Notes under the pieces: generated by a model
What the model saw: only the letters and a program-made list of their open reading frames with translations
Database searches by the model: none
Told to the model about the DNA's origin: nothing
Made by a program: the position numbers and the translations under genes
Origin: Klenkia terrae
GTDB taxonomy: Bacteria > Actinomycetota > Actinomycetes > Mycobacteriales > Geodermatophilaceae
Assembly: GCF_900491935.1 (NCBI RefSeq)
Contig: NZ_UEXK01000004.1
Coordinates: forward strand, 1,176,774-1,209,104
Length of the DNA: 32,331 nucleotides
Reading direction: 5' to 3'
Shown here: positions 15,566-21,167 of the stretch, piece by piece
Position numbering within the stretch: the first letter of the stretch is position 1
Layout: the number at the start of each line of letters is the position of its first letter

Positions 15566-15859
15566 TCACGCCAAGGAAACGGCCGCCGTGTCGCCGGTGT
15601 CGGCAGGCTTCGGTGTGCCGGTCGCCGAACGGGTGCCGCCGAGGGCCGCGGTCAGCGCGCCGACCGCGTCGGCGGCCACGCGCACCGCCAGACGGCGGGC
15701 CGCCGCGATCTGCTCGTAGACCTCCTCGCGGTGGATCGACACCTCGCGGGGGGCCTTGAAACCCAGCCGGACGGTGTTGCCGCGGACCTCGACGACGTGG
15801 ACCTCGATGTCGTCGCCGATGCGGATGGTCTCGCCGATGTTTCGGGTGAGCGTGAGCAC
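15566..15859 (-). CDS. csrA: Carbon storage regulator / flagellin translational repressor CsrA
   Basis: RNA-binding dimer that binds GGA in hairpin loops and blocks translation. In Bacillus it represses flagellin until FliW removes it. Residues 1-60 match CsrA closely: LTLTRNIGETIRIGDDIEVH, then GNTVRLGFKAPREVSIHREE, with the RNA-contacting L4, R6 and R44 all present. The protein is 97 residues, so it has about 35 extra C-terminal residues (Ala/Thr/Gly-rich). Start GTG 15859 with GGAGGGG (15865-15871) five bases upstream; GTG as Met gives the canonical ML.LTR start. No fliW is seen in the window. A sigma-28-like promoter lies just upstream, separate from flgL. Confidence 0.93.
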   Translation of the reverse strand: MLTLTRNIGETIRIGDDIEVHVVEVRGNTVRLGFKAPREVSIHREEVYEQIAAARRLAVRVAADAVGALTAALGGTRSATGTPKPADTGDTAAVSLA

Positions 15860-15884
15860 CTGGACCCCTCCATGGGTGTCGGTG

Positions 15885-15911
15885 GTCGGCCGGCGTCCTG
15901 CCAGCCGTGAG
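15885..15911 (-). promoter_or_regulatory. Sigma-28-like promoter of csrA
   Basis: On the minus strand CTCA (15908-15911), 17 bases and GCCGAC (15885-15890) match the CTCA-N16/17-GCCG pattern found before fliA, fliC, fliD and flgB. It begins directly after the flgL-csrA inverted repeat and lies 26 bases before the csrA start, leaving room for the Shine-Dalgarno. Confidence 0.55.
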
Positions 15912-15975
15912 CCAGTCGTCCCACCACCATGATCGGCAGTGGCGCAACCCCCGGCGGGACCGGTGGGACGACTGG
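15912..15975 (-). terminator. Inverted repeat between flgL and csrA
   Basis: CCAGTCGTCCCACC (15912-15925) is the exact complement of 15962-15975, a perfect 14-bp stem with a 36-base loop. It lies 26 bases after the flgL stop and immediately before the csrA promoter, so it probably ends the flgN-flgK-flgL transcript and insulates csrA. Confidence 0.55.
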
Positions 15976-16001
15976 GGCGTGCGGGGACGATGAGGCGTCG
16001 A

Positions 16002-18887: not shown

Positions 18888-18914
18888 CTCAAGTTCGGTG
18901 ACGGAGTTGCCGAG
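18888..18914 (+). promoter_or_regulatory. Sigma-28-like promoter (P2) of fliA
   Basis: CTCA (18888-18891), 17 bases and GCCGAG (18909-18914) match the fliC promoter spacing exactly. The start of transcription would fall near 18921, so translation should begin downstream, which favours GTG 18955 as the fliA start. It suggests autoregulation of fliA. Confidence 0.55.
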
Positions 18915-18954
18915 GAGGGTCAGGTGTGACTCGTGGGGCGCCGAGATAGGGGAC

Positions 18955-19899
18955 GTGAACACGTCCCGCCCGTCGCCTCCCCAGGCGGGCCCCTCCCGGT
19001 CGAGCCGCCCCCCGGTCGCAGCCGGGGCCGGTGTCGACGCGCTCGTCACCGAGCACCTGGCCCTCGCCCAGTACGCGGTGAACGCCGTCGCGGCCCGCAT
19101 CTCCCTGCCGGCGCACGTGAGCCGGGAGGACCTGCTGTCCTGCGCGCAGGTCGCGCTGGTGGAGGTGGCCCGTCGCTACGACGAAGCCGCCGGCGCCACC
19201 TTCGCCACCTATGCCCTCCCCCGCCTCCAGGGCGCGGTGCTCGACGAGCTGCGCTCCGGTGACTGGGCGAGCCGCTCCGTGCGGGCCGCCGCCCGGCGCA
19301 GCGACAGCGCCGCCGACGCGCTGTCGGCGAAGCTCGGCCGACCGCCGACCCGCGCGGAGCTGGCCGCCGAGCTGCAGGTGTCCCCCACCGAGCTGTCCGC
19401 GCTGCAGGTCGACGTGCACCGGGCCGTGATGGTGAGCATCGACGCCAGCACCGGCGAGGACGGGACCGGCTTCGACGTCCCCGGGACCGGCGACTCCCCC
19501 GAGCGCGCGGTGGTCAAGCGCGAGCGGGCCCGGCACCTGCACGAGGCGATGGCCGCCCTCCCCGACCGGTTGGGCGAGGTGGTCGAGCGCAGTTTCTTCG
19601 GTGACGAATCACTGACCGACATCGCGGTCGACCTCGGGGTCACCCTCTCCCGGGTCTCGCAGATGCGTGCCCGCGCCCTGACGCTGCTGCACGCCGCGAT
19701 GAGCGAGGCGTGGGAGGAGCGACCGGTGGCGCCGCAGGGCGGCGTCCGCGCCCGCACCCAGCAGGTCGGCTACGTCGCCCAGGTCGTCGCCCGCACCGGT
19801 GCCGGCGCCGAGCGCAGCCGTCCCGTCGGCGCGCGGGCGTTCTACCCCCCGCCGCGGACGGCGGCCGGGGTGCGCAGCGCCTTCGGCCAGCCGGCCTGA
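18955..19899 (+). CDS. fliA: FliA/WhiG-type flagellar sigma factor
   Basis: Sigma factor of 314 residues that directs RNA polymerase to late flagellar promoters. Region 2 spans about residues 30-105 (CAQVALVEVARRYDEAAGAT, then ATYALPRLQGAVLDELRSGD, the FliA/WhiG pattern). Region 3 is near 118-150 (KLGRPPTRAELAAELQVSP) and region 4 near 190-250 (LTDIAVDLGVTLSRVSQMRA helix-turn-helix). About 60 residues after region 4 are an extra Arg/Pro/Ala-rich tail. The start chosen is GTG 18955. GTG 18898 would lie upstream of the P2 -10 box. Neighbours are the flgN operon (divergent) and fliC downstream. An anti-sigma FlgM is not evident in the window. Confidence 0.9.
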   Translation: MNTSRPSPPQAGPSRSSRPPVAAGAGVDALVTEHLALAQYAVNAVAARISLPAHVSREDLLSCAQVALVEVARRYDEAAGATFATYALPRLQGAVLDELRSGDWASRSVRAAARRSDSAADALSAKLGRPPTRAELAAELQVSPTELSALQVDVHRAVMVSIDASTGEDGTGFDVPGTGDSPERAVVKRERARHLHEAMAALPDRLGEVVERSFFGDESLTDIAVDLGVTLSRVSQMRARALTLLHAAMSEAWEERPVAPQGGVRARTQQVGYVAQVVARTGAGAERSRPVGARAFYPPPRTAAGVRSAFGQPA

Positions 19900-19939
19900 C
19901 CCCTCCGGGCCGGACCGGCGAAGTTCTTGCCCGGTTCGG

Positions 19940-19966
19940 CTCAAGCACCACCGCACTCCAGCCGTA
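19940..19966 (+). promoter_or_regulatory. Sigma-28-like promoter of fliC
   Basis: CTCA (19940-19943), 17 bases and GCCGTA (19961-19966) lie 41 bases after the fliA stop. The extended -35 reads TTCGGCTCAAG, shared with other sites in this window. Transcription would start near 19973, giving a leader of about 67 bases that contains both CsrA-like hairpins. Confidence 0.65.
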
Positions 19967-19984
19967 AACACATCCGTACCACCC

Positions 19985-20000
19985 GCAGCACGGATGCAGC
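19985..20000 (+). promoter_or_regulatory. Putative CsrA site 1 in the fliC leader
   Basis: GCAGCA and TGCAGC pair (five pairs with one A-A mismatch) around the loop CGGA. This gives ACGGA with GGA (19992-19994) exposed in the loop, the arrangement CsrA recognises. It lies 46 bases before the fliC ATG. Confidence 0.55.
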
Positions 20001-20023
20001 GGGAATCATCCAGCACCGCCCCC

Positions 20024-20035
20024 ATCCAGGAGGAT
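20024..20035 (+). promoter_or_regulatory. Putative CsrA site 2 covering the fliC Shine-Dalgarno
   Basis: ATCC (20024-20027) pairs with GGAT (20032-20035), leaving AGGA in the loop. The same bases form the AGGAGG ribosome site of fliC, five bases before the ATG. Bound CsrA would block initiation, as known for the hag leader of Bacillus. Its GGA is 37 bases from that of site 1, within reach of one dimer. Confidence 0.6.
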
Positions 20036-20039
20036 CACC

Positions 20040-21167
20040 ATGGGCATGCGCATCAACACCAACACCGCCGCGATGAACGCCTACCGCAACCTGTCGGTCA
20101 ACGACTCGGCGATGAGCAAGTCGCTGGAGAAGCTGTCCTCGGGTTTCCGCATCAACCGCGCTGCGGACGACGCTGCGGGCCTGGCCATCTCCGAGGGCAT
20201 GAAGTCCCAGATCGGTGGCCTCAAGGTCGCCGTCCGCAACACCCAGGACGGCGTCAGCGTCGTGCAGACCGCGGAAGGCGCGCTGGCCACCACCCAGGGC
20301 ATCCTTCAGCGCATGCGCGACCTGTCCGTCCAGGCCGCGAACGACGGCGGTCTGTCGACCGAGGCCAAGGGCAACATCCAGTCCGAGATCACCCAGCTGA
20401 ACTCCGAGCTGACCCGCATCGCCGGCACCACCAAGTTCAACGGTAAGGCGCTGCTGGACGGCACGTACAGCGGTACCTTCCAGGTCGGCGCTAACGCCGC
20501 CGAGACCATCTCGGCCAGCGTTAAGTCGACGGGTGTCTCCGGCGCCGTCAGCAACTGGGCCAACGGCGCTGCCGCCACCACGGCGGCGGCTGCCACGTTC
20601 ACTCTCAACGGCGTCACGACCACGACCGCTGTGTTGACGGCATCCACCAACGCCAACACCATCGCCACGCAGCTGAACAACGACAACCAGTTCAAGCTGG
20701 CCTACACCGCGACGGTCGACAGCCTCGGCGGTCTCCAGGTCAAGGCCAAGGACGCCGCGGCGACCGGTGCCATCACCGCAGGCGGTGGAATCAACGCGGC
20801 GGGCACGAACACCGCGGCGGCTGCAGCGGCCGGCGGGTTCTCCGCCGCCGACCTGGGCGTGGCAGCGATCGACGTCACGGCCGTCGGCGGCCCGGATGCT
20901 GCTCTCGGCCTGCTCGACAAGGCCATCAGCGCCGTCTCGACCTCGCGTGCCAGCCTGGGTGCCATCCAGAACCGGCTCGAGCAGACCACGGCCAACCTGA
21001 ACATCGCCGTGGAGAACCTGACCGCCAGCCGCTCGCGCATCGTCGACGTCGACATGGCGTCGGAGATGACCGAGTTCAGCAAGAACCAGATCCTGGTCCA
21101 GGCCGGCACCTCCATGCTGGCCCAGGCCAACCAGTCCGCCCAGTCGGTCCTCAAGCTCCTGCAGTGA
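20040..21167 (+). CDS. fliC: Flagellin
   Basis: Filament subunit of 375 residues, exported by the flagellar type III system. The conserved N-terminal D0/D1 (about 1-150) begins MRINTNTAAMNAYRNLSVND and includes LSSGFRINRAADDAAGLAIS. The C-terminal D1/D0 (about 285-375) includes NRLEQTTANLNIAVENLTAS and ends QANQSAQSVLKLLQ. The central Ala/Thr-rich region (about 150-280) is the surface-exposed variable part and uses more A/T-ending codons than its neighbours. The ATG at 20040 follows AGGAGG. A very stable terminator follows. It is likely driven by FliA and repressed by CsrA, as argued from the leader. Confidence 0.96.
   Translation: MGMRINTNTAAMNAYRNLSVNDSAMSKSLEKLSSGFRINRAADDAAGLAISEGMKSQIGGLKVAVRNTQDGVSVVQTAEGALATTQGILQRMRDLSVQAANDGGLSTEAKGNIQSEITQLNSELTRIAGTTKFNGKALLDGTYSGTFQVGANAAETISASVKSTGVSGAVSNWANGAAATTAAAATFTLNGVTTTTAVLTASTNANTIATQLNNDNQFKLAYTATVDSLGGLQVKAKDAAATGAITAGGGINAAGTNTAAAAAAGGFSAADLGVAAIDVTAVGGPDAALGLLDKAISAVSTSRASLGAIQNRLEQTTANLNIAVENLTASRSRIVDVDMASEMTEFSKNQILVQAGTSMLAQANQSAQSVLKLLQ

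Follow-up and report, generated by a model that had tools for sequence, protein, structure and literature searches.

The flagellar locus of Klenkia terrae raises the question of whether CsrA controls flagellin translation through the fliC leader, and how such control would be set in a genus in which FliW, the known antagonist of CsrA, is not found. Within the window (the whole 32,331-nt stretch of DNA analysed here), the gene order is csrA, flgL, flgK, flgN (-), a gene of the sigma-70 family, fliC, fliD and fliS (Table 1). Going by its position, we read the sigma-70-family gene as FliA. Between it and fliC lie, in order, promoter-like elements, a hairpin and a Shine–Dalgarno sequence with a GGA. 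The promoter, CTCAAG-N15-GCCGTAAA, is presumably of the FliA type, judged by the consensus for such promoters. We consider it probable, at about 0.87, that CsrA represses fliC through two sites in this leader, a reading drawn from sequence comparison.

Table 1. Features of the csrA–fliC region, in window coordinates
Feature	Position	Strand	Remark
csrA, 97 aa, C-terminal extension	15566-15859	-	PF02599
flgL–csrA gap, 142 nt	15860-16001	-	fliW position in relatives that have FliW
Predicted CsrA site on the csrA Shine–Dalgarno, ACCC[ATGGAG]GGGT	15864-15877	-	
Predicted upstream CsrA site of csrA, CGGCTGGC[AGGAC]GCCGGCCG	15887-15907	-	
Sigma-70-family gene	18898-19899	+	just 5' of fliC
Promoter, presumably FliA-type	19940-19968	+	CTCAAG (19940-19945), 15 nt, GCCGTAAA (19961-19968)
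CsrA site 1 (predicted), CCCGC-A-GC[ACGGAT]GC-A-GCGGG	19982-20003	+	CCCGC 19982-19986; loop ACGGAT 19990-19995; GCGGG 19999-20003; GGA 19992-19994
CsrA site 2 (predicted), ATCC[AGGA]GGAT over the Shine–Dalgarno	20024-20035	+	GGA 20029-20031
fliC (flagellin), predicted regulated gene	20040-21167	+	Pfam Flagellin_N, Flagellin_C

Two GGA sites in the Klenkia fliC leader

The upstream hairpin (site 1) has a stem of seven pairs with one A–A mismatch and carries its GGA in the loop, upstream of the Shine–Dalgarno sequence. The original prediction had placed a CGGA loop on a short stem at 19985-20000; this loop is recovered by RNAfold, in which an extra A–U pair reduces the loop to CGGA, and the hairpin proved to extend beyond the stated ends on both sides. 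Site 2, ATCC-AGGA-GGAT, lies where it had been predicted and covers the AGGAGG Shine–Dalgarno of fliC, the ATG of which is at 20040. The predicted spacing of 37 nt between the two GGAs (starts at 19992 and 20029) is likewise correct, and csrA, said to lie about 4 kb away, has its start codon 4.2 kb from that of fliC.

Both hairpins are present in the minimum free energy (MFE) and centroid structures of the leader. Compared with its shuffles, the 80-nt Klenkia leader has no excess stability (z = -0.55, with 58 of 200 shuffles at least as stable), so the lone sequence is no proof and the case rests on comparison. Rfam returned two matches for 19900-20200, both on the opposite strand and far below the cut-offs (best E 0.39).

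For the comparison, a hairpin was scored as present if it had a loop ANGGAN, two closing pairs and at least six of eight symmetric pairs. On the two strands of the window, four places have such a hairpin, and that of fliC is the only one with a second GGA site after it. Taken by itself, the hairpin is one of several in the genome, with at least 17 model matches at E <= 10 among the 150 of 2882 candidates scored, one of them above fliC (28.7 versus 27.8 bits). Across the nine Klenkia genomes, with 150 candidates scored in each, the model R1 gave at least 114 matches at E <= 10 and matched fliC in 9/9; among 20 of the 105 non-fliC matches that were inspected, one recurs in three genomes and another in two. 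We claim none of these matches as a further CsrA target. A hairpin of the form GCCGCCC[ACGGAY]GGGCGGC is found in three Klenkia genomes (L296, L304 and L308), and the L296 copy (G000:C4:4307833-4307858, - strand) lies antisense, just upstream of a gene labelled rpoD-like by eye.

Conservation across actinobacterial leaders

Three sets of leaders were compared. The family scan covered 112 Geodermatophilaceae genomes, 100 of which had a fliC match; 100 stretches from 98 genomes were taken and, together with the window, provided 115 flagellin-type starts. The class set comprised 50 leaders from 394 genomes, of which 53 gave a flagellin-type match that in some cases is probably FlgL, and a further 13 leaders came from other actinobacteria outside Geodermatophilaceae. 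The hairpin is present in 108/115 family, 41/50 class and 10/13 other leaders. By chance, it is found in 42 of 8900 dinucleotide shuffles (0.47%) and in 0.69% of windows placed at random in these loci (n = 20200). A scorer that demanded a contiguous stem passed 7/115, 40/50 and 9/13 leaders, respectively; the A–A mismatch interrupts the stem of the family fliC hairpin, which this scorer therefore rejects, and the symmetric scorer was used instead.

The seven family leaders without a scored hairpin are a spurious start (G036), a divergent paralogue (G091) and five third flagellins. Among the nine class leaders, four (G292, G300, G391 and G437) retain the loop on a stem of 4–5 bp by eye; the complete genomes G403 and G512, which match flagellin weakly, lack both csrA and the hairpin, in favour of the CsrA reading; and it is also missing from leaders L242, L249 and L280, the last from a 63%-complete genome with no csrA. 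The csrA-negative, 80%-complete genome G157 has the hairpin nonetheless. The five third flagellins are divergent and belong to a genus designated g9 here (L199:4725, L208, L209, L210 and L211); they keep the stem and have the loop ACGGCT. We predict that they would escape CsrA, as natural losses of the GGA, and because the stem is kept, a further function of the hairpin is possible.

Within Klenkia, site 1 is identical base for base in 9/9 genomes, whose flanking bases diverge. The stem shows no variation among these nine genomes, so the covariation signal derives from other genera. In 40 hairpins hand-picked for diversity, one of them from a csrA leader, 84.6% of cells are paired (51.8% when shuffled) and the covariation score is 0.705 (0.190 when shuffled); none of 500 shuffles was as high for either measure. 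Paired cells, double-change cells and the covariation score exceed all 500 shuffles and all six slides, and further pair types exceed 499 of the 500. The number of pairs changed on both sides does not discriminate in these 40 hairpins (7 versus 7.0 shuffled, with 491/500 shuffles as high). In a set of 116 distinct hairpins, selected by pairing from 173 of 178 leaders, the share paired at the eight positions is 85%, as against 30–36% when slid. Between genera, the loop stays a near-invariant ANGGAN while the stems change on both sides, and the hairpin is kept by compensatory change. This alignment of relatives bears out the original prediction, which had looked for conserved loops and compensatory stem changes, and the spacing is kept as well.

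These patterns bear on two readings in which CsrA has no part. An inverted repeat between promoter and gene could serve as an operator at which a transcription factor binds the DNA, as its perfect outer arms and its position just downstream of the -10 would allow. The letters of the arms would then be expected to be kept, whereas the stem sequence changes with compensation; the strand-specific ANGGAN loop at the centre of symmetry and the second strand-specific GGA at the Shine–Dalgarno also argue against an operator, which we regard as very improbable. Alternatively, the hairpin could cap the 5' end of the mRNA against decay or keep the ribosome site open, with no protein reading the loop. 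A promoter pattern of the type TCAAG-N12..18-CCG was found in 103/115 family, 21/50 class and 1/13 other leaders; the spacer is exactly 15 nt in all but two of the family matches (101/103), and in 89 of these 103 the loop falls 21–25 nt after the -10. This placement, the very GC-rich stem and the third flagellins that preserve the stem with a changed loop would suit a cap. However, the loop of a pure stem should vary, yet here the stem varies and most leaders keep ANGGAN in the loop, and we consider a cap improbable.

At site 2, the other genera mostly have TCCA(A/C)GGAGGA, which fits CANGGANG; under a strict match, this motif is present at site 2 in 104/115 family leaders. The distance from the hairpin GGA to the Shine–Dalgarno GGA is 33–37 nt in 99/115. 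In contrast to the form in its relatives (CCAAGGAGG), Klenkia has CCAGGAGG in 9/9 genomes: it is one base shorter, with no base between the A and the GGA and a loop of four bases. The proposal that site 2 is a CsrA site thus keeps its GGA over the Shine–Dalgarno and loses, in Klenkia, the ANGGA form (0/9). The arms are TT/AA, AT/AT or GT/AT in 78 of the 113 family leaders with the pattern, and the outer pair is broken in 27 (24 G–A and 3 A–A); given these outer mismatches, the second stem is supported in part only. It also counts against repression by CsrA that the GGA of site 2 is needed as a Shine–Dalgarno sequence in any case. By eye, the fliC leaders L053, L070, L114 and L092 (Firmicute and deltaproteobacterial) follow the same plan, with, for example, CCACAAGGATGTGG or CCGGCAAGGATGCCGG, then CAAGGAGGA.

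The gene for the proposed repressor accompanies the flagellin gene downstream of these leaders: csrA is present in 100/112 family genomes, including 9/9 Klenkia. One family genome (G069) has a flagellin match and no csrA found, and its contig breaks off at the FliW match, after which csrA would come next. Among the 394 class genomes, 49 have a flagellin-type match and csrA, four a flagellin-type match only and seven csrA only. A near-flank tblastn search (57/79 loci) found no csrA at the Naasia, Specibacter, Arthrobacter and Paeniglutamicibacter loci. Absence of csrA from other actinobacteria was considered as an objection to CsrA and dropped, as whole-genome searches located the gene in 21/23 genomes, the two without it being the metagenome-assembled genomes G117 and G133. 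Leader control of flagellin by CsrA would be widespread among the flagellated Actinomycetes examined, and the class-wide evidence gives a CsrA–flagellin leader that would belong to actinobacterial flagella generally.

We propose that the fliC mRNA starts a few nucleotides before the strong site 1 hairpin, which would present ACGGAU to CsrA as a high-affinity site. A CsrA dimer tethered there could reach the GGA on the Shine–Dalgarno, and occupancy of this second site would block ribosome binding and hold flagellin translation down. The leader would correspond to the repressor half of the flagellin control known from hag in Bacillus and flaA in Campylobacter. The ANGGAN hexaloop fits the published SELEX consensus for CsrA, RUACARGGAUGU, which occurs mostly in six-nucleotide loops (PMC7652899).

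The hag leader of Bacillus subtilis has two CsrA sites, BS1 and BS2 (Yakhnin 2007, as cited in PMC7652899 and PMC2587704); its mechanism, with FliW, is described in PMC7652899 and the Hag–FliW–CsrA module in PMC6529632. The resemblance to hag that had been predicted holds for a flagellin leader with two sites, one of them over the Shine–Dalgarno, and fails for FliW, which is not detectable in Klenkia; phylum and stem sequence also differ. In Campylobacter jejuni flaA, a layout with a pair of ANGGA hairpins, of which the second covers the ribosome-binding site, has been tested experimentally (PMC4894983). The Klenkia leader shares with flaA the two GGA stem-loops, the position of the second and compensatory changes among relatives, but the species are distant, FliW is present in C. 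jejuni and site 2 of Klenkia is not ANGGA. For actinobacteria, a 2008 genome paper proposed CsrA control of flagellin in Kineococcus radiotolerans from a BS2-like Shine–Dalgarno site matching at 9/12 bases (PMC2587704). An actinobacterial flagellin as a CsrA target through its Shine–Dalgarno site is therefore not new, and the original prediction, which knew of no such description for actinobacteria, was not quite right on this point; the upstream hairpin is unmentioned in the parts of that paper drawn on here, which also hold no conservation test. In the portions used of two further papers, CsrA and FliW appear solely as search queries (PMC10746217) and csrA is noted among the starvation genes of a Modestobacter core genome (PMC8602919). 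A literature search of titles and abstract openings, with few subscription journals, returned nothing on an actinobacterial upstream hairpin or on FliW-less Geodermatophilaceae.

CsrA in genomes without detectable FliW

FliW was identified by Pfam in 70/112 family genomes and in none from Klenkia (nine genomes), a genus designated g5 (one) or g9 (23), that is, the window genome, G001-G008, G074 and G084-G106. A FliW profile built from ten family proteins reached a best E of 0.16 in 31 genomes of these FliW-less genera and found 4/4 controls. By comparison, FliW occurs in 60/68 class and outside genomes tested, among them all 47 non-family class genomes that carry csrA together with a flagellin-type match. 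The gap between flgL and csrA is 132–151 nt in the 31 FliW-less genomes versus 466–619 nt in the 66 FliW-bearing genomes measured. Thirty genomes (9 + 1 + 20) have fliC and csrA and no detectable FliW, and the Hag–FliW–CsrA homeostasis module lacks its FliW in all nine Klenkia. On a FlgK + FlgL tree (65 of 96 rows used), three changes of FliW state are needed, with losses and gains not separable. As a substitute checkpoint, FlgM was above the Pfam cut-off in 0/34 genomes, FliW-bearing genomes included, which does not set the FliW-less genomes apart. A near-perfect inverted repeat occupies 15912-15975 (- strand) in the flgL–csrA gap of the window, with 15 pairs in the MFE structure and GCCGAT between its arms.

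CsrA without FliW is known elsewhere, for example from Gammaproteobacteria and from single Betaproteobacteria (PMC7652899 and PMC7366521). In PMC4682653, 340/346 csrA genomes have BarA–UvrY or FliW but not both; its reference phylogeny includes a genome only if one or both are present, so we take no count of FliW-less cases from it. Deletion of fliW in C. jejuni strongly reduces flagellin (PMC4894983).

CsrA itself differs in these genera. We located residue 55 from the 5dmb match, which pairs query 2-68 with chain 3-69, and from PMC7829508, according to which N56 of the Geobacillus thermodenitrificans protein equals N55 of C. jejuni, N55A abolishes complex formation and N55 is present in every FliW-bearing species examined. 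This residue is Asn in 66/66 FliW-bearing relatives, Arg in 9/9 Klenkia and Gln in g5, so the FliW contact is changed in the CsrA of Klenkia. In g9 (n = 21), it is Asn in 14, Gln in six and Arg in one; as two thirds of g9 retain Asn although FliW was not found, the link between residue 55 and FliW is not strict. Residue 60 is Gln in 66/66 FliW-bearing genomes; in the rest, Arg, Ala or Glu takes its place.

The Klenkia leader could accordingly be a vestige, in a lineage that has lost CsrA control of fliC; this would concern Klenkia only and is compatible with CsrA control across the class. The missing FliW, the altered C-terminal helix of Klenkia CsrA and a site 2 that has drifted from ANGGA and is one base shorter in 9/9 are all consistent with such a loss. 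Site 1, however, is unchanged in 9/9 Klenkia though its flanks diverge, and csrA is retained in all nine. We consider a vestige unlikely and retain repression of fliC by CsrA as the preferred reading.

The csrA leader and possible control without FliW

In Klenkia, where FliW was not found, repression must be set or lifted otherwise. The leader of csrA carries GGA sites of its own, with weaker stems than that of fliC. The motif ACCCANGGARGGG lies on the csrA Shine–Dalgarno in 96/97 family csrA leaders. At the upstream site, most other genera have GCC[ANGGAN]GGC, a 3-bp stem, and by a 3-bp criterion this hairpin is present in 92/97 family leaders, 5/9 Klenkia and 1% of shuffles; the fliC-type criterion relaxed to 5/8 pairs finds it in 15/97. 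Upstream of csrA, 9/9 Klenkia have a hairpin of one kind or another with GGA in the loop and a stem of 4 bp or more, a count without a shuffle control. In the Klenkia csrA leader, the MFE structure pairs the Shine–Dalgarno stretch otherwise than in the predicted site, and because the corresponding stretch lies near or within the 3' end of fliW in FliW-bearing genomes, part of its conservation may come from coding constraint. We predict from these sites that csrA is autoregulated. Escherichia coli CsrA reportedly represses csrA through sites on its own leader; the arrangement here is similar, with sites predicted from short stems.

Our guess is that CsrA would repress its own mRNA, would thereby stay scarce and would then be out-titrated by abundant fliC mRNA. 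Tentatively, and with less than even confidence, we suggest that Klenkia and the two other genera control flagellin by CsrA without FliW, by an intact hairpin site on fliC and a CsrA that is restrained by GGA sites on its own mRNA and, in Klenkia, lacks the FliW contact. The Klenkia leader joins those of the hag and flaA type, and its FliW-less form is the part worth the attention of specialists. If this suggestion is right, the level of fliC mRNA relative to an autoregulated CsrA, rather than flagellin secretion coupled through FliW, would set flagellin output. The genomes that retain CsrA and its site with no detectable FliW offer a natural system for studying the effect of CsrA on flagellin after the loss of FliW.
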